IMG/VR virus record: IMGVR_UViG_3300046376_000026
Location: 1 to 42,557 of that record
Origin: a virus
Direction: 5' to 3' (one strand)
DNA length: 42,557 nucleotides
Below, in pieces: positions 18,637 to 38,935 of the stretch (position 1 is the stretch's first letter; each line of letters begins with the position of its first letter). A program made the position numbers and the translations under genes. Under the pieces are notes generated by a model. That model did no database searches and was not told the DNA's origin. It worked only from the letters and a program-made list of their open reading frames with translations.

Positions 18637-20190
18637 TTAGGTTGCGATCGTGGTATCGACGCCTCGATCGTACTGAAGTCTGAATTGCGCCAGCACCGCG
18701 AAGACGCGCAATTGGTTGATCAGGTCCGGCGGGTACAGCACGTTGACGCGGTTCGGATCGTTCGGGTCGCGCTCCACGATCAGATTGGTCTTGAACGCAG
18801 TGGCGTTCTCGACGCGGCCCAAGAATTCATCCTGCCGATACTGCGCAATGAGTTCCGCCTTGATGATCTTCGGCGTGACGATCGCCTGACCAGCGCCGAA
18901 CAGGGTGCCGTCGTCGGCGAGCTTGTGCCTCGGGAATTTCGTCGTGATGGCGTAACGCTGGCTTCGGAACAGCGCCGCCAATGTCGCCAGCGTCGGCACC
19001 AGTTCATAAGCGTCGTCACCCTGACCATAGAGATTGCGCTGGTATGTGGTGCTCTCTCGCTTGATCGATGGGACGCCATCCCCGTTGATGCTCTGCGTCG
19101 CGAGACCGACGCCCGCAAAATCGTTGAGCTGCCGCATCGTGAAGCGCTGATGCTTTGGCGCGGGCAGGCAACCATCCAGCGACAGCGTCTGCAACGGACG
19201 TGCCGGATCATTGACCAGCGCGCGCGCGGCCTTCGCGGTGTAGGCCGCCGCGAAGCACCACGGCGGTGTCGGGGAATTCGCCTCGATGCCAAGGATCGAG
19301 ACCACGCCGGAATTGTTGTTCGGGCCGTACTGCAGAAGGTCCGCATAACCGACGCTGTCGCCAGCCGCCGCGACGCCGCGCTTTGCCGCGAAGATATGAC
19401 CGTAAAGCTGGCGCAACCAACCCCAGCGCCCTAGATCGCTGAAGCCATATTCGCTTTCCAGCAAGGCCAGCGAGGTGCTGTCGGTATAACCTGTCGCGAC
19501 ATACTCATAGGCTTCGTCGCCGAGATTGGTGATTGCTGCGGAGATGTCCACCGTGCCGGTGCCGCCCGACAATTTGTTTCCGGTAGGCAAGGTGATGGCG
19601 AGACCAATCGGCACCTGCTCTGAGGCAAGGGTGCCGCCATAGGCCAACCGCACATCGAGGTCGTTGCCCTCGATGCCCTTCCATTTGCAGGTCAGATCGA
19701 CTTCTGCGGCAGTGGCAACCGCAGTCACCGGCATCGATGGATCGGCGGTGATCGCCGCCGCGATGTTGGTCGCGGTCGTGTCGATCGCTTCTCCGGCGGC
19801 AACGAACACCTGCACACGGCGGCCTGCGACGTAGACCGGCAGCGTGCCAGCGGAAACCGCCGCAGCCGTCACCGTCAGCTTGCCGGTCGCGGCCACGCCC
19901 GCCGCCGCTTCTGCGATCGGGACTACCCAAAGCTCCTGCGCGAAATTGTTGCTGGTGAAGAAGTCCACCATGCCGTCGAGCATTGAGCCGTAGCCGAACA
20001 ACTGCCGTGCGTCGGCCACCGATGGCACCGGCACCGGCACGTTCGGCTCCGCCGTGCCGCTCGCCAGCATGGTGCCGAAGATCAGCGAGATGAGATTTGA
20101 AGTCGGATAACCAGCCATGCTCGGGTCCACTTCGACCCAGTAGAGCGGCATTTTCCAGTTCGCAGGAATGCTGTTAAACGAGATGGGCAT
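18637..20190 (-). CDS. Tail sheath protein (Mu gpL family)
   Basis: This 517-residue protein is the contractile sheath. The N-terminus MPISFNSIPANWKMPLYWVEVDPSMAG and the ADARQLFGYGSML segment match Mu-type sheaths. A central beta insertion (about 110-220) follows, and the C-terminal domain has FAGVGLATQSINGDG and LINQLRVFAVLAQFRLQYD. The start is ATG 20190; an AAGGAG lies some 10 nt upstream. It overlaps the preceding gene by 17 nt. Confidence 0.9.
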   Translation of the reverse strand: MPISFNSIPANWKMPLYWVEVDPSMAGYPTSNLISLIFGTMLASGTAEPNVPVPVPSVADARQLFGYGSMLDGMVDFFTSNNFAQELWVVPIAEAAAGVAATGKLTVTAAAVSAGTLPVYVAGRRVQVFVAAGEAIDTTATNIAAAITADPSMPVTAVATAAEVDLTCKWKGIEGNDLDVRLAYGGTLASEQVPIGLAITLPTGNKLSGGTGTVDISAAITNLGDEAYEYVATGYTDSTSLALLESEYGFSDLGRWGWLRQLYGHIFAAKRGVAAAGDSVGYADLLQYGPNNNSGVVSILGIEANSPTPPWCFAAAYTAKAARALVNDPARPLQTLSLDGCLPAPKHQRFTMRQLNDFAGVGLATQSINGDGVPSIKRESTTYQRNLYGQGDDAYELVPTLATLAALFRSQRYAITTKFPRHKLADDGTLFGAGQAIVTPKIIKAELIAQYRQDEFLGRVENATAFKTNLIVERDPNDPNRVNVLYPPDLINQLRVFAVLAQFRLQYDRGVDTTIAT

Positions 20191-20791
20191 CGCCGTGGTC
20201 TCCTTCTTCAGTCGGAGGTGATGCGGGTGCGGCCCGCGTTGTTTCAATTTCGATATCCACTTCGAGCTGGGGCGTGCCAGCGTCGGCGTGTTCCTTGTCG
20301 GGGAATTGCGTGGTGATGCGGACGGATTTGAAATCGTCGGGGACGCGCGGATCGAAGTAACTGCGGAACTGCACGTTCATCTCGACGCGGATTTCGAACA
20401 GCGTTGTCTCGCCGATCTTGGCGTACTGCCCGACACGGTCCATTGCCGTGACGCCCTCCATCATCCTCGTGAAGCTCGGGTCACTAAGCAGGATGTCATC
20501 GACCGTGCTCATCCATTCTTCTAGGTCGCTGATCTGGTTCTGCTTGTCGGTTTCGACATGCACAGCGCCGGAAAACCCCAGTGTCAGGTCGTGAATGAAT
20601 TTCGGCATCGTCTGGTTTGACTGCCCATCCGGCAAACGCCGTTCGCGCAGGATGTGAACGGCGAGCACCGGCAGATCGCCCGGCTGGACCTGAAGCATCG
20701 GCGTCTGTCGGTAGGTCTTGAATTGCGCGCCGAACCCGATTTGCAGCAACGACAGCGCCTTCTGCTGAAGCGTGATTGCGTAGTGGCTCAT
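20174..20791 (-). CDS. Tail completion / terminator-like protein
   Basis: The protein has 205 residues. It sits between head completion genes and the sheath, where phages encode the tail terminator or neck protein (Mu gp37/lambda U position). The Ala/Gln-rich helical start and the beta-rich middle fit that role. There is also a Thr/Glu-rich tail. No direct sequence family was recognised, so the call rests on order. It overlaps both neighbours (ATGA upstream). Confidence 0.65.
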   Translation of the reverse strand: MSHYAITLQQKALSLLQIGFGAQFKTYRQTPMLQVQPGDLPVLAVHILRERRLPDGQSNQTMPKFIHDLTLGFSGAVHVETDKQNQISDLEEWMSTVDDILLSDPSFTRMMEGVTAMDRVGQYAKIGETTLFEIRVEMNVQFRSYFDPRVPDDFKSVRITTQFPDKEHADAGTPQLEVDIEIETTRAAPASPPTEEGDHGDAHLV

Positions 20792-26002: not shown

Positions 26003-28033
26003 TCAGGCTCCGAGATAGGTACTCCGAATGACGCGCCTTACTCTTCGGCCACGCGGTGGCGGTGGCGGTGGTGGCGCTGTCGTCTCGACTACCTCGGATT
26101 GGGTTGGCGGCTGCCTGCCAACGCCAGCCCTAGTCCGATTGTTACCGCTTGGCAATGCTATCCGTTGAACGTTCAGCAAATAGCCAGCCGCCGCCTGCAT
26201 CGCCTCGCAGTCGAAGAAGTGGTTGTCGCGCGACCGCTGCACCCACTCGACGCGGCCTGTCGGCTGCTTGAGCCGCGCTTCAGAGACGAGCTGGTGGCAG
26301 TAATCGTCATCGACGCCATTGAAGACATGCCAGCCGCCGATGTGGTCCTCTGGCCACCTAAGCCGTTCATGCACCCAGCTTTTCCAGTGATCGGTGTCCA
26401 AACGCACAAGGTCCAGACCGTACTTTGCGGCGCGTCCATCCTTGCGGCTGACCTCGATCTTGCTGAAGAGCAATGGCGTGCGCATCGGCGACGCCGATCC
26501 CTTGGTTGGCCGCACCCTGCGCATGAAGCGGCGACAGAATTCATAGACGCGATTGAGTGGCAGGGTGTCGGTCTTGCCGGGCCGGAAGCCGCTGTCGATG
26601 AACGCAAGCCGGATCGGCACGCCGTCGATCGGCGATGAGACCAGATCGCCCAGCGCATTCCAGATGTCCTCCTCTGCGGTGTCGCCGCGCAGGTAACCGT
26701 AGTTGATCAGCCACGATGTCGCGCGTGCGCCCCAGCCACGAATGACCCACGGGATCGATTGCTTTTGCACGTCGCATGCAAGCGTCAGGTACATCACATC
26801 CTCTGGCACCTCGCCGCGCTTGTAGGTGGCTTGCCGGGATTTCTCCTTTATCTCCATCCACTCCGGCACCTCGCCGCCGCCGGGCGAATACAGTTCGCCG
26901 AAGCCAGCGTTGATGGCCTGCTGCACCATCGCGTCGTCGCCGGACTGCTGCGCCTCGACCAGCACGGCAACGCGCTCGCCGAACGTGACGAACGGTGAAG
27001 CCAGACCGGAGCACCAGAACGTGATTGATTTGCTCTCCGGCGGCGCGCCGTGGACGATGCCGCCCTTATCGACGTTCTGGCCCGGCGCGACATACCTGCC
27101 GCGTGCGTTCATGTCGGCCTTGTGGTTCTCCTCGATCACCCCGTTGCAGTTGGGGCATTCAAGGAAGGTCTCGCGCGCCGCTTCCAGTGGCTTGGCCTTC
27201 AGCGGGAAGCGCAACAGGTTGAAACGCGGCACAAAATATTCGTCGCAGTGCGGGCATGGCCAGCACCAGTGATGCCGCGTGCCCTGCTGCCAGAGTTGCC
27301 AGATCGGGCTTTCGATGTCCTCGGACACGGCGATGTCCCAGAAGAAAAGGCCAGTGGTCTCGTCCTTGGTCGCTGCTACCCTGCCGCGCTTCGGCGTCGA
27401 TGTCACCACGCAAACGAAGTCGGCATAGGTGTCGCCGCGCCGCTCGACCAGACCAAGCGGACCGCCCTGATTATTCACGTTGTCGCGCATCTCGTCGTAT
27501 TCATCGACCAATGCCAGCGCCGCCGGATCGGACTTGAGCGCGGTTGATGATCCCGAATGCGCGAGGCGGAACGGCACGCCTGCCACCACCTTGCGGGTTT
27601 TCGTCATGCGCTTGCCGCGCGCGACCTTGGCCATCAGCGTCGGCGCTTCATCGAGCAGCGCCATGACGCGCGGTTCGAACTGCTCGGTGAGGAATTGCTT
27701 GTTGGGTCCAACGTACAGGATTGGACCGGGGCGCTGATCGAGCCGCTGGCCCGCGACATCGAGCATCAGCTCGGACTTGCCCGACTGCGCGCCGAACACC
27801 ATGACGACGCGCTTGTACACCCCGCTGGCGATGACGCGCTCCGGTTCGACCACATAGGGTGTCAGCAGTGGATCACGCGGTCCCGGCACCGCCGCCGTTG
27901 CCGGATAGGTCCGGTTTGCCGCCGCCCACAGGTCCGGCTCCATCGGCTCTGAAGGCATCATCAACGCCGCGAACCGTCTCCAGCCGTATGGCCTGTGCCA
28001 TTGCGTGCTCTGCGATGCGACGAAGTCTAGCAT
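26003..28033 (-). CDS. Terminase large subunit (lambda gpA family)
   Basis: This 676-residue protein is the ATP-driven packaging motor and nuclease. The N-terminal region with PDLWAAANRTYP resembles the gpA start. Walker A is FGAQSGKSE (80-88) and Walker B is ALVDEYDEM (174-182). A four-cysteine cluster (CPHCDEYF... CPNC, about 255-300) and the nuclease C-terminal domain follow, and a Pro-rich basic tail ends the protein. The start at 28033 follows GAGAGGTCA and gives a family-like N-terminus. It overlaps the small subunit by 161 nt; ATG 27961 is an alternative. Confidence 0.92.
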   Translation of the reverse strand: MLDFVASQSTQWHRPYGWRRFAALMMPSEPMEPDLWAAANRTYPATAAVPGPRDPLLTPYVVEPERVIASGVYKRVVMVFGAQSGKSELMLDVAGQRLDQRPGPILYVGPNKQFLTEQFEPRVMALLDEAPTLMAKVARGKRMTKTRKVVAGVPFRLAHSGSSTALKSDPAALALVDEYDEMRDNVNNQGGPLGLVERRGDTYADFVCVVTSTPKRGRVAATKDETTGLFFWDIAVSEDIESPIWQLWQQGTRHHWCWPCPHCDEYFVPRFNLLRFPLKAKPLEAARETFLECPNCNGVIEENHKADMNARGRYVAPGQNVDKGGIVHGAPPESKSITFWCSGLASPFVTFGERVAVLVEAQQSGDDAMVQQAINAGFGELYSPGGGEVPEWMEIKEKSRQATYKRGEVPEDVMYLTLACDVQKQSIPWVIRGWGARATSWLINYGYLRGDTAEEDIWNALGDLVSSPIDGVPIRLAFIDSGFRPGKTDTLPLNRVYEFCRRFMRRVRPTKGSASPMRTPLLFSKIEVSRKDGRAAKYGLDLVRLDTDHWKSWVHERLRWPEDHIGGWHVFNGVDDDYCHQLVSEARLKQPTGRVEWVQRSRDNHFFDCEAMQAAAGYLLNVQRIALPSGNNRTRAGVGRQPPTQSEVVETTAPPPPPPPRGRRVRRVIRSTYLGA

Positions 28034-28605: not shown

Positions 28606-28644
28606 AATTGAAAGTTTCTTGTCTAATTGATCCCAAATTGAAAG
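28606..28644 (+). repeat. Direct repeats AATTGAAAG beside terminase gene
   Basis: AATTGAAAG occurs at 28606-28614 and 28636-28644 (30 bp apart), with AATTGATCC between at 28625. They lie in the divergent region just ahead of the terminase small-subunit start. In lambda the cosB binding sites also lie ahead of nu1, so these may be terminase or repressor sites. The second copy also supplies the -35 hexamer of the rightward promoter. Confidence 0.35.
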
Positions 28645-28680
28645 AATTTTCCCCTCAGAATGATAAGTTCGGCTTTACTG
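28619..28680 (+). promoter_or_regulatory. Promoter P1 for amidoligase operon
   Basis: TTGAAA (28638-28643), 17-bp spacer and TGATAA (28661-28666) make a near-consensus sigma70 promoter. A TTGTCT-A-ATTG box starts at 28619, exactly 42 bp before TGATAA. The block 28657-28680 (GAATGATAAGTTC and beyond) recurs with one change upstream of 30802, where the box-to-hexamer distance is again 42 bp. The box may be an activator or repressor site. Confidence 0.65.
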
Positions 28681-28710
28681 GAGGGGCGGATTGCCTAGTG
28701 TATTCAAACG

Positions 28711-28761
28711 GTTCGGCGGTTCGCCGGAACGCGGGGACGGGTTCCCTTAACCCGGTTTTTT
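28711..28761 (+). promoter_or_regulatory. Attenuator-like leader before amidoligase
   Basis: A first hairpin (28711-28730, GTTCGGCG/CGCCGGAAC with one bulge) is followed by a second perfect stem 28738-28743/28749-28754 (CGGGTT/AACCCG) and six T residues (28756-28761). This is an intrinsic-terminator shape lying between the promoter and the ribosome binding site of the amidoligase. It suggests that expression depends on read-through or antitermination. Confidence 0.55.
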
Positions 28762-28774
28762 CGGAGCGAGCGAA

Positions 28775-29791
28775 ATGCATCCCTCTATCTCTTCCTTCAC
28801 CTTCGGCGCGGAATTCGAAGTCCTCCTTCCGCGCGGTCTAGACCGCCACAGCGGCGCGGCAGCGGTCGCGCGCGCGTCCGGTCTTACCGTCAACTCCGGC
28901 ACGATCGGCGGCAGCACCGCAAATTGGAAGGTCGTTTCGGACTTGAGCGTTTCCGGTAACGGCCACGGTCTCGAATTCGTTTCCCCAATCCTTAAGGGCG
29001 AAGACGGTCTCAATCAGGTTCGCAAAATCACCGCCGCGCTTACCGCGATCGGCGCGACCATCAATCAGACTTGCGGCCTTCATGTTCATGTCGGCGTCCG
29101 AAACGAGCCGATCGATTTTTTCAAAAATCTGATCAAGCTCTATAGCAAATTTGAGGATGCGATCGATACCATCATGCCGCAGTCGCGCCGCGCCAACGCC
29201 GCGCGTTATTGCAGATCGGTCAAGCTAATCAACCCGGCAGCAATCGACGCCGCGCGCTCAAAGGAAGAATTAGCGCAAGCGCTTTACCGCGCCAGCGGCG
29301 CGGACGGCGCGAAATATCACAAGGTCAACTTGGTCCCGCACGGCAAGCCGACAGTCGAATTCCGGCACCATGCCGGAACGGTTGACGGCGAAAAGGCGGT
29401 CAATTGGATCGTCACTTGCTTGCGCCTCGTCGCGGCGGCGAAAGCCGGTAAGAGCGGCGCGGGCGAAACCATCGCGCGGGATTTTTCGCGGCTCGATGCG
29501 AAGGCGCGCGCGGTCGCCGATGCAATCAGCAAGCCGGAAGGCGCAACGGCGGATGAAATCCGCAGCGCGCACGGTTTCCGCGCGCTCTCGATCAAGCGGC
29601 AAGCGGCCATCGCGGGCTTGCAGGTTCGCGTCGTTCGCGAGCGCGGCAAAGAGCGCTTCTTTATCGTCGCGCAAACCGAACCGGGCCGCGACGTTCCCGC
29701 AACGCTCGCCGGTCTATTCGAAGTTATCGACGCATCGCCGGAGGAAGCCGAATTCCTCCGCGCGCGCGCGCAGACACTCGCCAACCTTTAA
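28775..29791 (+). CDS. GS-fold amidoligase fused to wHTH-like C-terminal domain
   Basis: This 338-residue protein belongs to the Amidoligase_2 (glutamine-synthetase-like COOH-NH2 ligase) family. ATP-dependent ligases of this group join amino acids or amines to carboxyl groups of small molecules, peptides or proteins. Motifs: FGAEFEV (10-16, metal/ATP glutamates), GLEFVSPIL (65-73), CGLHVHVG (100-107) and VEFRHHAGT (194-202), all intact. Residues about 240-310 look like a DUF3489-type winged helix: PEGATADEIRSAHGF, a middle helix, then RERGKERFFIV. The fusion suggests action at DNA. Start by GGAGCGAGCGAA; the cyclotransferase-like gene follows 58 bp later. Confidence 0.8.
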   Translation: MHPSISSFTFGAEFEVLLPRGLDRHSGAAAVARASGLTVNSGTIGGSTANWKVVSDLSVSGNGHGLEFVSPILKGEDGLNQVRKITAALTAIGATINQTCGLHVHVGVRNEPIDFFKNLIKLYSKFEDAIDTIMPQSRRANAARYCRSVKLINPAAIDAARSKEELAQALYRASGADGAKYHKVNLVPHGKPTVEFRHHAGTVDGEKAVNWIVTCLRLVAAAKAGKSGAGETIARDFSRLDAKARAVADAISKPEGATADEIRSAHGFRALSIKRQAAIAGLQVRVVRERGKERFFIVAQTEPGRDVPATLAGLFEVIDASPEEAEFLRARAQTLANL

Positions 29792-29797
29792 CCCAAC

Positions 29798-29825
29798 CCG
29801 GCGCGCGCCAATCCCGGTGCGCGCC
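29798..29825 (+). promoter_or_regulatory. Intergenic hairpin between amidoligase and GGCT genes
   Basis: A perfect 9-bp stem (29798-29806 with 29817-29825, GGCGCGCGC/GCGCGCGCC) carries a 10-nt loop. No T-tract follows, so it is probably an RNA stability or translation-control structure. It ends 12 nt before the GGAGCAAG leader of the next gene. Confidence 0.5.
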
Positions 29826-29849
29826 ACCACCAAAATTGGAGCAAGCAAA

Positions 29850-30596
29850 ATGTTGTATTTCGCCTATGGATCGAATTTGCATCTGGGCCAGATGGCCCGC
29901 CGATGCCCTGATGCCGAACCGCTCGGGCCGTTGATCATGCCGAACACCCGGCTGGTGTTCCGGGGAGTTGCTGATGTCATCCGCGAAGATGGTGTCGAGT
30001 GCCCCGGCGGCATCTGGCGTATCACCAAGCGGTGCGAGGCGGCGCTCGATCGATACGAGGGCTTCGACCCGGATCATCCTGATCGCGGCATGTACACGAA
30101 AGAGTACGTGCAGCTCGACGGGCTGCCCGATGGTGAGACCGAAATCATGCTCTACACGATGAACTCGCGCGGCATCTATCCGCCGTCTGAGGGCTACTTC
30201 GGCACCATCGTGCAGGGCTACAAAGACTTTGGGCTGGATCGCGCCGCGCTCAAGATTGCGCTCGATCACTCTTACGAGGCTAAGCACCCGTCGCACATTG
30301 AGCGCCAGCGAACGCGGCGGATGGGACGGCCAGCGCTCGCACCGCGCCCGGTTCGCAAGGCCAAGCCAGAGCAACAGCCGGAGCGGCGGACAGACAAGGC
30401 CGCACAGAAGGCCGCGAAAAAGGCCGCCAAGAAAGAGCGCAAGGCCGGACAGATGATGGACGGCGGCAAGCACCGCCGCGCGGTGGATCAGCTTCATGAT
30501 CCATGGGCGAACGTGCCTGCGGATGTGCATCGCAAAAAGATAACCAACCTGTCGGACTGGTTGCGCGACCGCAAGTCCTCGGGCGTGCGGCACTAG
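29850..30596 (+). CDS. Gamma-glutamylcyclotransferase-like (GGCT/AIG2) protein
   Basis: The protein has 248 residues. The GGCT-fold signature YFAYGSNL (3-10) and the catalytic glutamate in ALDRYEGF (Glu70) are both present, so the enzyme is likely active. Such proteins cleave gamma-glutamyl amide links by cyclisation to 5-oxoproline. The core ends near 150. Residues 150-248 are a long basic Lys/Ala/Arg tail that could bind nucleic acid or a partner and is not typical of the family. Next to an amidoligase it is the natural opposite or editing activity. Start from GGAGCAAGCAAA; a terminator follows at 30611. Confidence 0.82.
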   Translation: MLYFAYGSNLHLGQMARRCPDAEPLGPLIMPNTRLVFRGVADVIREDGVECPGGIWRITKRCEAALDRYEGFDPDHPDRGMYTKEYVQLDGLPDGETEIMLYTMNSRGIYPPSEGYFGTIVQGYKDFGLDRAALKIALDHSYEAKHPSHIERQRTRRMGRPALAPRPVRKAKPEQQPERRTDKAAQKAAKKAAKKERKAGQMMDGGKHRRAVDQLHDPWANVPADVHRKKITNLSDWLRDRKSSGVRH

Positions 30597-30610
30597 ACGG
30601 CCAAATGCTA

Positions 30611-30644
30611 CCCCGGCGGGTCATTCTCGCCGGGGAATTTTTTT
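30611..30644 (+). terminator. Intrinsic terminator after GGCT gene
   Basis: Perfect 8-bp stem CCCCGGCG/CGCCGGGG (30611-30618 with 30628-30635), 9-nt loop, then AA and seven T residues. It closes the amidoligase-GGCT unit. Confidence 0.88.
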
Positions 30645-30704
30645 GTCTCGATTGGCAATCAATGGAATTTCCTTGTCTCTAGAATGATAAGTTCAGCTTT
30701 ACTG
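30643..30704 (+). promoter_or_regulatory. Promoter P2, duplicate of P1
   Basis: TTGTCT-CG-ATTGG starts at 30643, directly out of the terminator T-run. TGATAA lies at 30685-30690, 42 bp further, the same distance as in P1. The 24-nt block 30681-30704 matches P1 with one change. The -35 hexamer at the 17-bp position is a weak ATGGAA (30662-30667), so P2 may need an activator at the TTGTCT box. A CAACGGTTCGCCG segment of the leader is also shared. Confidence 0.6.
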
Positions 30705-30765
30705 CATGCAGGCGTTGGCTACTGTTTTCCCAACGGTTCGCCGCAGCGGCGGGCCGGTTTCGGGA

Positions 30766-30801: not shown

Positions 30802-31419
30802 ATGAACGCCTATTTCAAATTGAATGACCAGTGGTGCATCCGCTCCGCTGCTGCAGATGTCGCCGGTCAGTCGGTCATTGTGACCAAGCGCAACGGCCAG
30901 TCCAAGCCGGTGCAGCTCGGCGACAAGGTTGGCGAGGGCTTCGGCCAGACCTATTACGCCATTGCGGAGCGCGCGCCGCAGCCCGCGCAAAATGTTGGCG
31001 ACCTTTCCCGTATCATCGCGATGTTCGACCGCGCGCGGCAGCACCTGCGCTACCCGGCGGTCGTGCTCGACGGTTTCCGCGTCAACGTCGCGGGCGGTCG
31101 CGCGCGCGAACCGGGAAGCCTCACGGTAACCAGCGCCGAACGCGGCGCGGACAACCGCCGCCGCTGGTTAGGCCGCGTCACGCTCGCCGGTCAGTTCGAA
31201 CCGGCGCGCGATACTGACCCGGCGATCGGGGACAAGTTGCGCGCGTTCGCCGCCGACCCGGCGGGTGTCGCCGCCGAATATGGTCGCCTGCACGGTGCCT
31301 GCTGCTTCTGCCGCAAGCCGTTGCGTGACGAGCGGTCCACTTCGGTGGGCTACGGCCCGAATTGCGCAGAGAATTACGGCCTCCCTTGGGGCGCGATCTG
31401 CGAAGCCATCGCCGCCTGA
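30802..31419 (+). CDS. DUF6011-like zinc-binding protein
   Basis: The protein has 205 residues. The C-terminal part (about 165-195) shows GACCFCRKPLRDERSTSVGYGPNCAENYGLPW, which reads as the DUF6011 zinc site (C-x2-C, Ser, GxGPxC). The N-terminal about 60 residues are beta-rich and the middle has basic patches (GGRARE, DNRRRW). DUF6011 occurs in phage and plasmid proteins, sometimes with nucleic-acid enzymes; the function is not known. Start behind GGAGCAAGCCAA; controlled by the P2 leader. Confidence 0.7.
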   Translation: MNAYFKLNDQWCIRSAAADVAGQSVIVTKRNGQSKPVQLGDKVGEGFGQTYYAIAERAPQPAQNVGDLSRIIAMFDRARQHLRYPAVVLDGFRVNVAGGRAREPGSLTVTSAERGADNRRRWLGRVTLAGQFEPARDTDPAIGDKLRAFAADPAGVAAEYGRLHGACCFCRKPLRDERSTSVGYGPNCAENYGLPWGAICEAIAA

Positions 31420-33188: not shown

Positions 33189-33217
33189 TCGACACCATCG
33201 AGCTATGCGAAAGATAA
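33189..33217 (+). promoter_or_regulatory. Promoter-like sequence P3
   Basis: TCGACA (33189-33194), 17-bp spacer, AGATAA (33212-33217), followed by GCT as in a GAWNGATAAG-type block shared with P1 and P2. It lies in the 135-bp gap before the gene at 33309 and could be an internal promoter for the small-gene run. Confidence 0.45.
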
Positions 33218-36155: not shown

Positions 36156-36779
36156 TCAGTAATTAAAGCGGTCACAGAGCGGCCTCTCCGCGTCCATTAT
36201 TCGCTTGCGCATCGCGGGCGTCACTACAGCCTCGGTCTCCATCCGCCGCTCCGTAGCGTTCCTACGGGGCGGCATCAGCGGCACCGCCGCGCGGACCTCT
36301 CCCGCCTCATCCAGAATTTTGTTCAAGTCCGCGAAAAGCGTTTCGGTCTTGCCGATGCGATCGACCGGCTTATCCGACCACAGGCCCAGCTTCTGAAACA
36401 TCGTTTGCGTGGCGATGCCGGGGAAGCGCTCCAGATATTTTTCCACGAACTCCGCGAATGAAAAGCTCCAACAGCACGCCATCCAGACCTGTGCTGCCGT
36501 GCCCCGGTGCTGGACGTGGACCGGGTAGCCGCTGGCCACCGCGAATGCCCAGCGCGACACCAGCCAGTCCACCGGATGCCGCACGAAGCCGAACGACAGC
36601 CTGCCGCTCTCGATGCCAGGATGTCGCGCGCGCAGCTCGGGCAAACCGAAATGTCGCTCGCCCTCGGCATCGCCGCTCTCGTGCCCGACCGGATTGCAGC
36701 GGTACAGCGCCTCGCGAACGGACATGCCGCCGGTCTTCTGGACGTGGATGAACAGCGTCTTATCGGTCACGAAAGCCAT
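36156..36779 (-). CDS. Sulfotransferase
   Basis: This 207-residue protein transfers sulfate from PAPS. The 5'-phosphosulfate loop is FIHVQKTGGMS (10-20, Lys15) and the 3'-phosphate segment is GFVRHPVDWLVSRW (64-77, Arg67 and Ser75), both intact and in the expected order of Sulfotransfer_2-type enzymes. The acceptor is unknown. It is the last gene of a leftward set with a glycosyltransferase and ParB-like protein, so a sugar on DNA or on the cell/virion surface is a likely target. It starts one base after the upstream small gene stops. Confidence 0.85.
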   Translation of the reverse strand: MAFVTDKTLFIHVQKTGGMSVREALYRCNPVGHESGDAEGERHFGLPELRARHPGIESGRLSFGFVRHPVDWLVSRWAFAVASGYPVHVQHRGTAAQVWMACCWSFSFAEFVEKYLERFPGIATQTMFQKLGLWSDKPVDRIGKTETLFADLNKILDEAGEVRAAVPLMPPRRNATERRMETEAVVTPAMRKRIMDAERPLCDRFNY

Positions 36780-36780
36780 G

Positions 36781-36966
36781 TCACACCAGCCCTTCCGCTT
36801 TGCGCCCGCAGATCACACGCGCAAGATCGGTGACCGACACCACGGCAGGACCGGACCCGTAACCCGATGCCTGCACAGCCACAATGCGGTGCGCCTCTGC
36901 CTCGATTGCCCATCCCTGATCTTCGAACCAGTGCGAAATCCACCACACCAGTTTTTCTTCGTCCAT
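36781..36966 (-). CDS. Small hypothetical protein (61 aa)
   Basis: A 61-residue protein from ATG 36966 (or GTG 36969) in a TGATG overlap with the glycosyltransferase stop. WWISHWFEDQGWAIEAEAHRIVAVQAS is amphipathic and Trp-rich; the remainder is helix. The placement between glycosyltransferase and sulfotransferase suggests an accessory or linker role. Not a known family. Confidence 0.55.
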   Translation of the reverse strand: MDEEKLVWWISHWFEDQGWAIEAEAHRIVAVQASGYGSGPAVVSVTDLARVICGRKAEGLV

Positions 36967-37730
36967 CACTTCCTCCCTCTTGCCAGCGAGTTCTGCCGCC
37001 GCACATGCGGAACGCCCGCGACGGTGTCGCCCTTCTTCATGTAGCCGGGCCGCCGGAAGCTGATGGCCGTGCCCCAGCGCTTGGCGACGATCTCGGTGGA
37101 GCGCTTGAAGTCCTCCGGCGTCACCAGCCCCGACTGGCCGCCGCTGCCACTGAAGCTGCGCCCGAAGTCGAAATAGTACCGGATGTCGGCCAAGACGATA
37201 CGGTCCTCCAGCAGCGTGCGCATGGTCCAGTCCAGATCGGCGCGGCTCTTCAGCGTCTCATCGTACAGCCGACCGCGCGCCTTGTTCATCACGCCCCAGC
37301 AACCATAGACCTGTTGCGTCGGCACGATGGGCCGCTCGTCGGGCCGGACCACCGTGGTGTTGGCGGTCCGCGACCAGCAGAAGGTGCTCAGCCCCAGATC
37401 GGCGCAGCAGGTGACCGCGTTCTCGATGATGGCCATGACCTCGTCGGGATCGGTGATGAAGCGCTTCGATCCGATGTTGCTCCTGACGCCGACCAGATCG
37501 TCGTCGCTCTGGATCAGGCATGGAGCCGTCACATTCTGGATGATCCAGTTGCGCGCCGCCGGAGCGCCCGATGATGGCGGGTGCAAAAGCAACTGCCGGT
37601 TGGGGACCGCCGCCCGGTACTCGTCGCGCTCGCGCTCATCGACGCAGATGATTGCGTCCGGCATGAGGGACAGCATCGTCTTCGCGTTGTGCGGTCTGCC
37701 CCGACTGGGGACCACGATCTGGTACTTCAT
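36966..37730 (-). CDS. TET-associated-type glycosyltransferase (GT-A)
   Basis: This 254-residue protein is likely a nucleotide-sugar transferase of the TAGT group, first noted beside TET/JBP DNA oxygenases in phages. It has the typical N-terminal VVPSRGRP (6-13), an acidic metal motif QSDDDL (74-79), a CWG-type middle (GCWGVM, 143-148), and the DLDWTMRTLLEDR acceptor-loop pattern (165-177). No TET/JBP gene is seen in the window, so the modified base or other acceptor is unknown. The start is ATG 37730 inside the zinc-ribbon gene end. Confidence 0.75.
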   Translation of the reverse strand: MKYQIVVPSRGRPHNAKTMLSLMPDAIICVDERERDEYRAAVPNRQLLLHPPSSGAPAARNWIIQNVTAPCLIQSDDDLVGVRSNIGSKRFITDPDEVMAIIENAVTCCADLGLSTFCWSRTANTTVVRPDERPIVPTQQVYGCWGVMNKARGRLYDETLKSRADLDWTMRTLLEDRIVLADIRYYFDFGRSFSGSGGQSGLVTPEDFKRSTEIVAKRWGTAISFRRPGYMKKGDTVAGVPHVRRQNSLARGRK

Positions 37731-37851
37731 GCCGCCTCCGCTGATATTCCCGCTTCACCGCCAGCTTCTGCTCGTAGCTGCACGGGCCGCAGTAAACCTT
37801 CGTTCCGCTGATCCCGGCTCCGCACTTCGCGCATGGCCGGATGTGTCTCAT
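37636..37851 (-). CDS. Zinc-ribbon protein (71 aa), possible ParB extension
   Basis: The frame from ATG 37851 (ATGA overlap with the ParB stop) encodes MRHIRPCAKCGAG ... YCGPCSYEQKL, a classic C-x2-C ... C-x2-C ribbon with a basic tail (EYQRRRHE). Residues after about 45 overlap the glycosyltransferase start in another frame. A run of seven A residues just before the start may permit -1 slippage from the ParB frame, giving a 282-residue fusion. Confidence 0.55.
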   Translation of the reverse strand: MRHIRPCAKCGAGISGTKVYCGPCSYEQKLAVKREYQRRRHEVPDRGPQSGQTAQREDDAVPHAGRNHLRR

Positions 37852-38483
37852 TTTTTTCGCTCGCCCAGCAGCTCGACCAGCTTGTCGGCGCGGATCGCAT
37901 GCGCCAGTCCCATCTTGTGGCGGCGCTTGACCACCGGCAGATCGAGCCGATCGCACAACACATTCCATTCGTGCGTGGTTGACGCGAGGACAACGAGATA
38001 GTCGTAATGTTCGTGCGGCTGCAGCGCCATGCCGGGCACATCAAGCCGCTCGTCCTCCTTGGTGCCTTCCTTCTCCCCGTACTTCCGGGTGATGTCGGTC
38101 ACCACCTTGCGCAGCTCGGCATGCTCATCCAGCTCGATGCCGGTCAACAGCAGCTTGAAGGCGTCCACATCCGGGATCGCCAGCGCGCTGAGCGGGTCAT
38201 AGGTCGCCAGCACCTTCGCTGCCTCGTCTTCGTTGAGGTCCACGATCAGCACCGGCATCTCGCTGTCGTCGGCAAGGTCCGCGCGCAGGTGCCCGTCAAT
38301 CAATTCGATGCCATCGGCTGTATCGCGGCCTATGCCAGCGCCGACAAAGCCCACCGTCGCCAGCAATTCCGTCAGCGCAGATCGCTGGCCCTCTGGATGC
38401 TGCCGCCAGTTGCGCGGGTTGCGCTTCAACTCGCTCGCCTTAACGCGGCGCAGCTCGACAATCCGGTTGCGAAATTCGGTCAT
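37848..38483 (-). CDS. ParB/Srx-fold nuclease-like protein
   Basis: This 211-residue protein has a ParB-like N-terminal domain: LKRNPRNWRQHPEGQR, VGAGIGRD and LIDGHLRADLA (about 19-85, the last as a ParB box II variant). The rest is helical with HEHYDYLVVLASTTHEWN. Phage ParB-like proteins work as nucleases, CTP-switch proteins or modification partners. The chosen start (MTEFRNRIVELR) overlaps the upstream stop as ATGA; a longer start is less likely. Confidence 0.82.
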   Translation of the reverse strand: MTEFRNRIVELRRVKASELKRNPRNWRQHPEGQRSALTELLATVGFVGAGIGRDTADGIELIDGHLRADLADDSEMPVLIVDLNEDEAAKVLATYDPLSALAIPDVDAFKLLLTGIELDEHAELRKVVTDITRKYGEKEGTKEDERLDVPGMALQPHEHYDYLVVLASTTHEWNVLCDRLDLPVVKRRHKMGLAHAIRADKLVELLGERKK

Positions 38484-38935
38484 GCTGCCCTGTTCCACTG
38501 TTGCTCCAGCGGCGTTGCCCATCGGCAATTGCCGGGTTCGTAATTCCCATCGGCGTCTGGGTATCGATCAATCGTATGCTCTGGCGACGGCTTGTGGCCC
38601 ATGTCGGCGAGAAAGTTCGCGAAGCTGTAGCGCCAGCGGTCGCACACCGTGATGCCGCGCCCACCGTAAATTCTCCACTTCTCATGCTTCGGGTAGTAGC
38701 AACGCTTCTTCATCGCCAGCCATGTCGTGTACTCCGGCGAGTATCTGCCGCCGTGAACGACCGACTTGCAATCGCGGCAGCCGGTAGTTTTACCTTTCCG
38801 CAAATCGCGGTTGTCAGCGACGATCACCGCGCCGCAATCGCACTGGCAAAACCAGTAGCTTGCCCTTTGCGGCGTCCGCTTTATGGCCGTCAACTTCCCA
38901 AATCGCTGGCCTTTTAGGTTGGCAGATCGCGGCAT
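38480..38935 (-). CDS. HNH-like homing-type protein with zinc ribbon
   Basis: The protein has 151 residues. An N-terminal Cys cluster (CQCDCG at 30-35 with CRDC at 53-56) is followed by WLAMKKRCYYPKH, 'YGGRGITVCDRW' and TIDRYPDADGNYEPGNCRW. The last block resembles the second half of His-Me-finger (HNH) nucleases of phage homing type. The start is MPRSANLKGQRFGK. It is a possible selfish element next to ParB. The nuclease call is from pattern only. Confidence 0.65.
   Translation of the reverse strand: MPRSANLKGQRFGKLTAIKRTPQRASYWFCQCDCGAVIVADNRDLRKGKTTGCRDCKSVVHGGRYSPEYTTWLAMKKRCYYPKHEKWRIYGGRGITVCDRWRYSFANFLADMGHKPSPEHTIDRYPDADGNYEPGNCRWATPLEQQWNRAA

Follow-up and report, generated by a model that had tools for sequence, protein, structure and literature searches.

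The right arm of the contractile-tailed phage analysed here carries a two-gene unit, in which an amidoligase with an inserted winged-helix domain is followed by a GGCT-fold protein with a long basic tail. The window, i.e. the whole stretch of DNA that was analysed, comprises 42,557 bases and represents an entire virus record; it encodes a tail sheath (18637–20247) and a GpA-type large terminase (26003–28033), and the amidoligase and GGCT genes are divergent from the terminase genes. A search of phage records at the DNA level with the window returned 0 matches. Sequence comparison established the families of both enzymes with their intact motifs, the site of the winged helix, the pairing of the two genes, the movement of the winged-helix domain from one ligase to another and its co-distribution with the basic tail of the partner. 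We tentatively propose, with somewhat less than even confidence, that, in these lineages, a gamma-glutamyl-type ligase/cyclotransferase pair is directed to nucleic acid. The features of the unit and its surroundings are as follows.

28662–28705, + strand: promoter-like element GATAAGTTCGGCTTTACTG-N15-TAGTGTATTC ahead of the ligase gene (repeat; relatives)
28738–28754, + strand: leader hairpin CGGGTT-CCCTT-AACCCG with a 6-bp stem, followed by GTTTTTT (attenuator candidate, not supported)
28763–28774, + strand: ribosome-binding region CGGAGCGAGCGAA (repeat families)
28775–29791, + strand: Amidoligase_2 protein, 338 aa (Pfam 9.9e-34; AlphaFold; Foldseek; purifying selection in relatives)
28775–29455, + strand: amidoligase catalytic core, residues 1–227 (Pfam, conserved residues, AlphaFold)
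29486–29674, + strand: inserted DUF3489-type winged-helix domain, residues 238–300, net charge +6 (Pfam in relatives, AlphaFold, Foldseek)
29675–29788, + strand: terminal helix pair of the amidoligase, residues 301–338 (AlphaFold, C-terminus comparison)
29850–30596, + strand: GGCT-fold protein, 248 aa, with YGSNL and Glu70 (Pfam, PHROG, human GGCT alignment)
30273–30593, + strand: basic tail of the GGCT protein, with a PSHIERQRxRRMGRP motif, a Lys/Ala/Arg stretch and a terminal NLSDWLRDRKSSG motif (sequence, charge)
30611–30642, + strand: strong intrinsic terminator closing the two-gene unit (fold analysis)
30686–30729, + strand: second copy of the promoter-like element, opening the next unit (DUF6011 gene, 30802–31419; repeat of the copy at 28662)
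36966–37730, − strand: TAGT glycosyltransferase (PF20691)

The amidoligase matches the Amidoligase_2 profile (PF12224) with an E-value of 9.9e-34 and 117.7 bits against a cut-off of 22 (Pfam), and the motifs GAEFE, LEFVSP, GLHVHVG and EFRHHAGT are all present. Residues G11, E13, E15, E67, G101, H103, H105, E195 and R197 are invariant across 37 relatives, and dN/dS values of 0.24–0.31 for the ligase genes of relatives indicate purifying selection. The AlphaFold model of the whole protein (pLDDT 91.9) was matched by Foldseek to YbdK (1tt4, E 5e-6) and to glutamine synthetases, i.e. the protein displays a fold like that of glutamine synthetase, in which acidic, His and Arg residues are conserved; a profile search of PDB sequences with the amidoligase detected no similarity to YbdK or glutamine synthetase. 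Since the model places the protein with YbdK and glutamine synthetase, ATP-dependent amide formation would be the expected chemistry of this enzyme.

Similarly, the downstream protein matches the GGCT/GGACT profile (PF06094; E 2.6e-7, 31.6 bits against a cut-off of 22.8, Pfam) as well as the PHROG family of gamma-glutamyl cyclotransferases (9e-24). When aligned to human GGCT, its YGSN loop matches and E70 falls on the position of the human LDxxEG motif, while the GGCT genes of relatives are under purifying selection (dN/dS 0.25–0.30). The fold suggests that the predicted activity is the removal of gamma-glutamyl groups. The tail bears a net charge of +18 across about 103 residues. A preliminary description of this DNA had proposed an intact Amidoligase_2 enzyme with the four motifs named above and an intact GGCT-fold protein with YGSNL, Glu70 and a long Lys/Ala/Arg tail, all of which these analyses bear out. 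Among related loci, one GGCT partner (L068:5004-5735) has an additional C-terminal domain that appears winged-helix-like by eye and gave no Pfam match. At another locus, a second GGCT-like gene, of the VYGTL type, follows the pair at a distance of a few genes (L002:8825-9250), and genes of this type occur in 11 non-redundant loci.

Comparison of the C-terminal part of the ligase with profiles and models identified a DUF3489-type winged helix. The window protein itself matches DUF3489 (PF11994) weakly (E 0.043, 16.1 bits, cut-off 29.5, Pfam), while 26 of the 37 relatives match at E<=0.05, with a best value of 4.4e-7. In a whole-contig search the profile was found in 16/16 contigs with a winged-helix ligase versus 0/10 other contigs, the coordinates of the match being verified for the window and taken as the amidoligase frame in the other contigs; the curated cut-off was passed by five contigs, all close relatives of the window. 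It is the matches in relatives that support the assignment, as the single-sequence match of the window alone is too weak. In the AlphaFold model, residues 242–297 form three helices and two beta strands (H-H-H-beta-beta, pLDDT mostly 85–94) with two further helices after them, and the top Foldseek matches of the isolated domain are mostly winged-helix proteins (MarR, ArsR and BlaI repressors), although the best E-value is only 0.008. The insert has three helices and a beta wing, similar to solved winged-helix proteins. Its charge is positive in 35/35 relatives (range +2 to +11), and the domain is predicted to bind DNA.

In ligases that lack the winged helix, a short last segment similar to the terminal helix pair comes directly after the core; as the core thus runs straight into the terminal segment, the winged helix is to be regarded as an insertion, situated by this comparison between the catalytic core and the last two helices, and not as a tail. 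The DUF3489-like winged-helix C-terminus of the preliminary description consequently stands as to fold (AlphaFold), is supported as to family by the DUF3489 matches of relatives and falls as to its tail position. Eight ligases (L086, L088, L097, L103, L110, L117, L118 and L120) carry another type of insert at this position (KxFxEIRxQVxxxGG...), for which no Pfam match was obtained in the two that were scanned (L103 and L117).

The winged helix does not share the history of the core that carries it. The window ligase shares 73% of residues with L018 in the second half of the core and 44% in the winged helix, whereas the corresponding values against L001, L008, L009 and L015 are 57–66% and 81–84%. 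The core tree favours a pairing of the window with L016 (support 92/90 in one tree, and 99/96 in another that includes the near-identical L018), and this placement is rejected by the winged-helix tree (p-AU 3e-7); the core tree, in turn, leaves the winged-helix grouping unrejected (p-AU 0.18). L020 represents a second conflict between core and insert trees. This disagreement of the trees indicates that the winged helix is swapped between ligases; for a binding domain that determines a target, an exchange of this kind would be expected. Furthermore, the basic tail of the partner is distributed together with the winged helix: the median charge of GGCT tails is +11 beside a winged-helix ligase versus +1 beside a ligase lacking the domain, their median length is 70.5 versus 18, and an ERxRxxxxG motif occurs in 31/36 versus 0/27 of them, but the tree allows only 1–4 independent evolutionary contrasts, so that common descent could account for the correlation. 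The co-distribution fits a link to nucleic acid.

The preliminary description had staked its proposal on the neighbours being conserved in relatives, and this adjacency was indeed found. The viral scan with the ligase yielded 46 loci and that with the GGCT protein 482 relatives, 80 of which were kept. Counted from the GGCT side, an amidoligase lies at <=2.5 kb in 42 of the 45 non-redundant loci with enough flank; counted from the ligase side, a GGCT gene is present in 16/30, those devoid of it being distant ligases without the winged helix. The winged-helix version comprises the window plus at least 37 related phage sequences, and a GGCT gene is located just downstream of the winged-helix ligase in 38/38 non-redundant phage loci, which include some found via GGCT. 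Additionally, the distances between ligases correlate with those between GGCT proteins (Mantel r 0.70, with no permutation above 0.19). Among the neighbours, terminase genes, ParB-like proteins and DUF6011 recur often, though none is general, and since there is no other constant partner gene the two genes are taken to act as a unit. The scan of genomes with the ligase gave 0 relatives, while that with GGCT retrieved prophage-like pairs from clostridia and, from mycobacteria, GGCTs that lack a ligase partner, with no winged-helix ligase among the matches. Most of L141–L192 are mycobacterial chromosomes, where the GGCT relative lies in ORFs of ~1 kb with no ligase nearby. An HNH-endonuclease-like ORF is found inside one pair (L001:4983-5453), where the gap between ligase and GGCT amounts to about 750 bases, and a PAPS-reductase-like gene lies near the pair at L118:5278-6483 and at 12 similar loci, with ParB-like proteins often encoded by those phages.

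With regard to expression, the element GATAAGTnnnGCTTTACTG...TAsTGTwTTC is located at 28662 and 30686, and close relatives have it ahead of their ligase genes as well; its 78% repeat spans 30681–30729, and elsewhere in the window the pattern recurs solely as a weaker copy at 33213. In the form GATAAG-N4-GCTTTAC...TACTGT (28662, 30686 and 33213, + strand) it precedes two, perhaps three, right-arm units and likely represents a phage promoter family. A sigma-70 consensus promoter was sought with no match, and the promoter previously ascribed to the unit is thus retained as a conserved, repeated promoter-like element and not as a sigma-70 consensus. Copies resembling GGAGCAAGCAAA lie ahead of several right-arm genes. 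The strong terminator reported earlier was confirmed, as 30611–30635 forms a 10-bp stem with a z-score of −3.87. Conversely, the attenuator-like leader was not supported: folding of the leader is no better than that of shuffled sequences (z +0.54), and among the relatives the hairpin can be made out clearly by eye in L015 only.

If the tentative nucleic-acid reading is followed, the ligase would be a glutamine-synthetase-fold carboxylate-amine ligase that forms an amide, most likely of the gamma-glutamyl type, at the expense of ATP, and the GGCT-fold enzyme would free a gamma-glutamyl-type group as 5-oxoproline. The inserted winged helix and the basic tail of the partner would bring both enzymes to nucleic acid, where an amide on DNA or a DNA-bound protein may be put on and taken off, or protected and deprotected, by the pair; what we infer in this scheme is the gamma-glutamyl nature of the chemistry, the binding of DNA and the target. 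A more specific version, in which the ligase, aimed by its exchangeable winged helix, marks DNA, or a protein attached to it, with a gamma-glutamyl-like group and the basic-tailed cyclotransferase erases this reversible amide mark, is considered unlikely. A winged helix can also bind protein or RNA or serve regulation only, which counts against a nucleic-acid role, and no constant DNA-modification partner of the pair was found. A hypermodified base as the target, which had been suggested previously, found no support: a thymidylate-synthase homologue, as would serve thymidine hypermodification, was present in 0/29 contigs (which may be fragments), and the TAGT glycosyltransferase is absent in most phages with the winged-helix pair. 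This gene occurs in 7/48 contigs, all seven from close relatives in the window's own clade, and was therefore rejected as a general partner. In the window it belongs to a set (36156–38528, − strand) in which it is flanked on one side by a weak sulfotransferase match (Sulfotransfer_2, slightly under the cut-off) and on the other by a ParB-like protein that also matches a DNA methyltransferase weakly; this set is possibly a DNA or surface glycosylation module. Of the ligase and cyclotransferase with a nucleic-acid target that had initially been proposed, the ligase fold, the pairing with GGCT, the winged helix and the co-distribution of the basic tail are upheld, whereas DNA or a hypermodified base as the target is not.

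The main rivals of the nucleic-acid reading are a role in envelope modification and a bifunctional enzyme resembling BirA. In the former, which seems somewhat unlikely, the pair would alter peptidoglycan peptides or another surface molecule and thereby block superinfection, with the winged helix and tail as accessories. Modification of the cell wall against superinfection is the published hypothesis for the phage pair and for the amidoligase genes of phiEco32, RIO-1-like and LUZ24-like phages; moreover, 27 loci encode the pair without winged helix or basic tail, and as such pairs are common in phages, DNA is not a requirement of the chemistry. The other members of the peptidoglycan-modification cassette are, however, missing beside the pair: the COOH-NH2 ligase was found in 0/29 contigs (in a search without a positive control), the class II glutamine amidotransferase in 1/29 and the R2K ATP-grasp ligase in 1/29. 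The LUZ24 amidoligase is also distant from that of the window (E 1e-15), the LUZ24 GGCT belongs to a different, YGTL-type subfamily, and the combination of winged helix and basic tail is left unexplained.

Regulation by the ligase itself, which we consider distinctly unlikely, would have the enzyme make an amide of a metabolite or peptide while the winged helix, depending on the substrate, switches the enzyme's own promoter off or on. The fusion of a winged helix to an amide-forming ligase, the conserved and repeated promoter-like element of the unit and the repressors among the Foldseek matches agree with this, and exchange of the domain fits a switching of operators. However, the promoter-like element looks general, at least one further unit having a copy of it, no operator with dyad symmetry was identified, and the partner's basic tail is again unaccounted for. 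Finally, it is improbable that the pair shifts nitrogen or glutamate via gamma-glutamyl compounds during infection. These compounds are substrates of both folds, and a role in nitrogen metabolism has been proposed for phage ZRK32, but the winged helix and tail would have no role and no further glutamate-pathway gene recurs beside the pair. Should the pair act at DNA, it would constitute a new kind of reversible amide modification, and should it not, a new enzyme-regulator fusion. The amidoligase-GGCT combination is a recurrent unexplained phage enzyme pair, whose usual cell-wall explanation is a hypothesis, and the swappable, putatively DNA-binding domain together with the partner's basic tail makes the question of its target directly testable.

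Pairs of this kind have been annotated in Arthrobacter, Clostridium and Pseudoalteromonas phages and elsewhere, in the accounts available to us usually as a 'peptidoglycan modification' module. As in the window, Amidoligase_2 adjoins AIG2/GGCT in Arthrobacter cluster AL phages, C. difficile Tn6164 and Terrisporobacter and C. clostridioforme prophages, the Tn6164 pair likewise adjoining a terminase gene; a winged-helix insert such as that of the window ligase is not mentioned in the descriptions consulted, and in the clostridial relatives that were checked the ligase, unlike that of the window, ends in the short terminal segment alone. The cassette of RIO-1-like and LUZ24-like podoviruses also combines an amidoligase with a gamma-glutamyl cyclotransferase, but has at least five enzymes, a COOH-NH2 ligase, an amidotransferase and an ATP-grasp ligase among them, against two in the window. 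No PADLOC anti-phage defence model matched, and no description of a winged-helix ligase with a basic-tailed partner was found in the literature searched, an absence to be taken as provisional. The claim of the preliminary description that no such phage system had been described is therefore incorrect for the pair, which is already known, annotated and the subject of a published hypothesis, and is sustained for the winged-helix fusion version, which appears undescribed.

The closest solved folds for the ligase, YbdK and glutamine synthetase, are both without a winged helix; YbdK is a weak gamma-glutamylcysteine ligase. BirA, the biotin ligase/repressor, likewise joins an amide-forming ligase to a winged helix, but its catalytic fold is unrelated and its winged helix N-terminal, whereas that of the window ligase is inserted near the C-terminus. 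In butirosin biosynthesis, the ligase BtrJ attaches a gamma-glutamyl group that the GGCT-fold enzyme BtrG removes; unlike the window pair, this system employs an ATP-grasp ligase, belongs to a biosynthetic cluster and has no DNA-binding domain.
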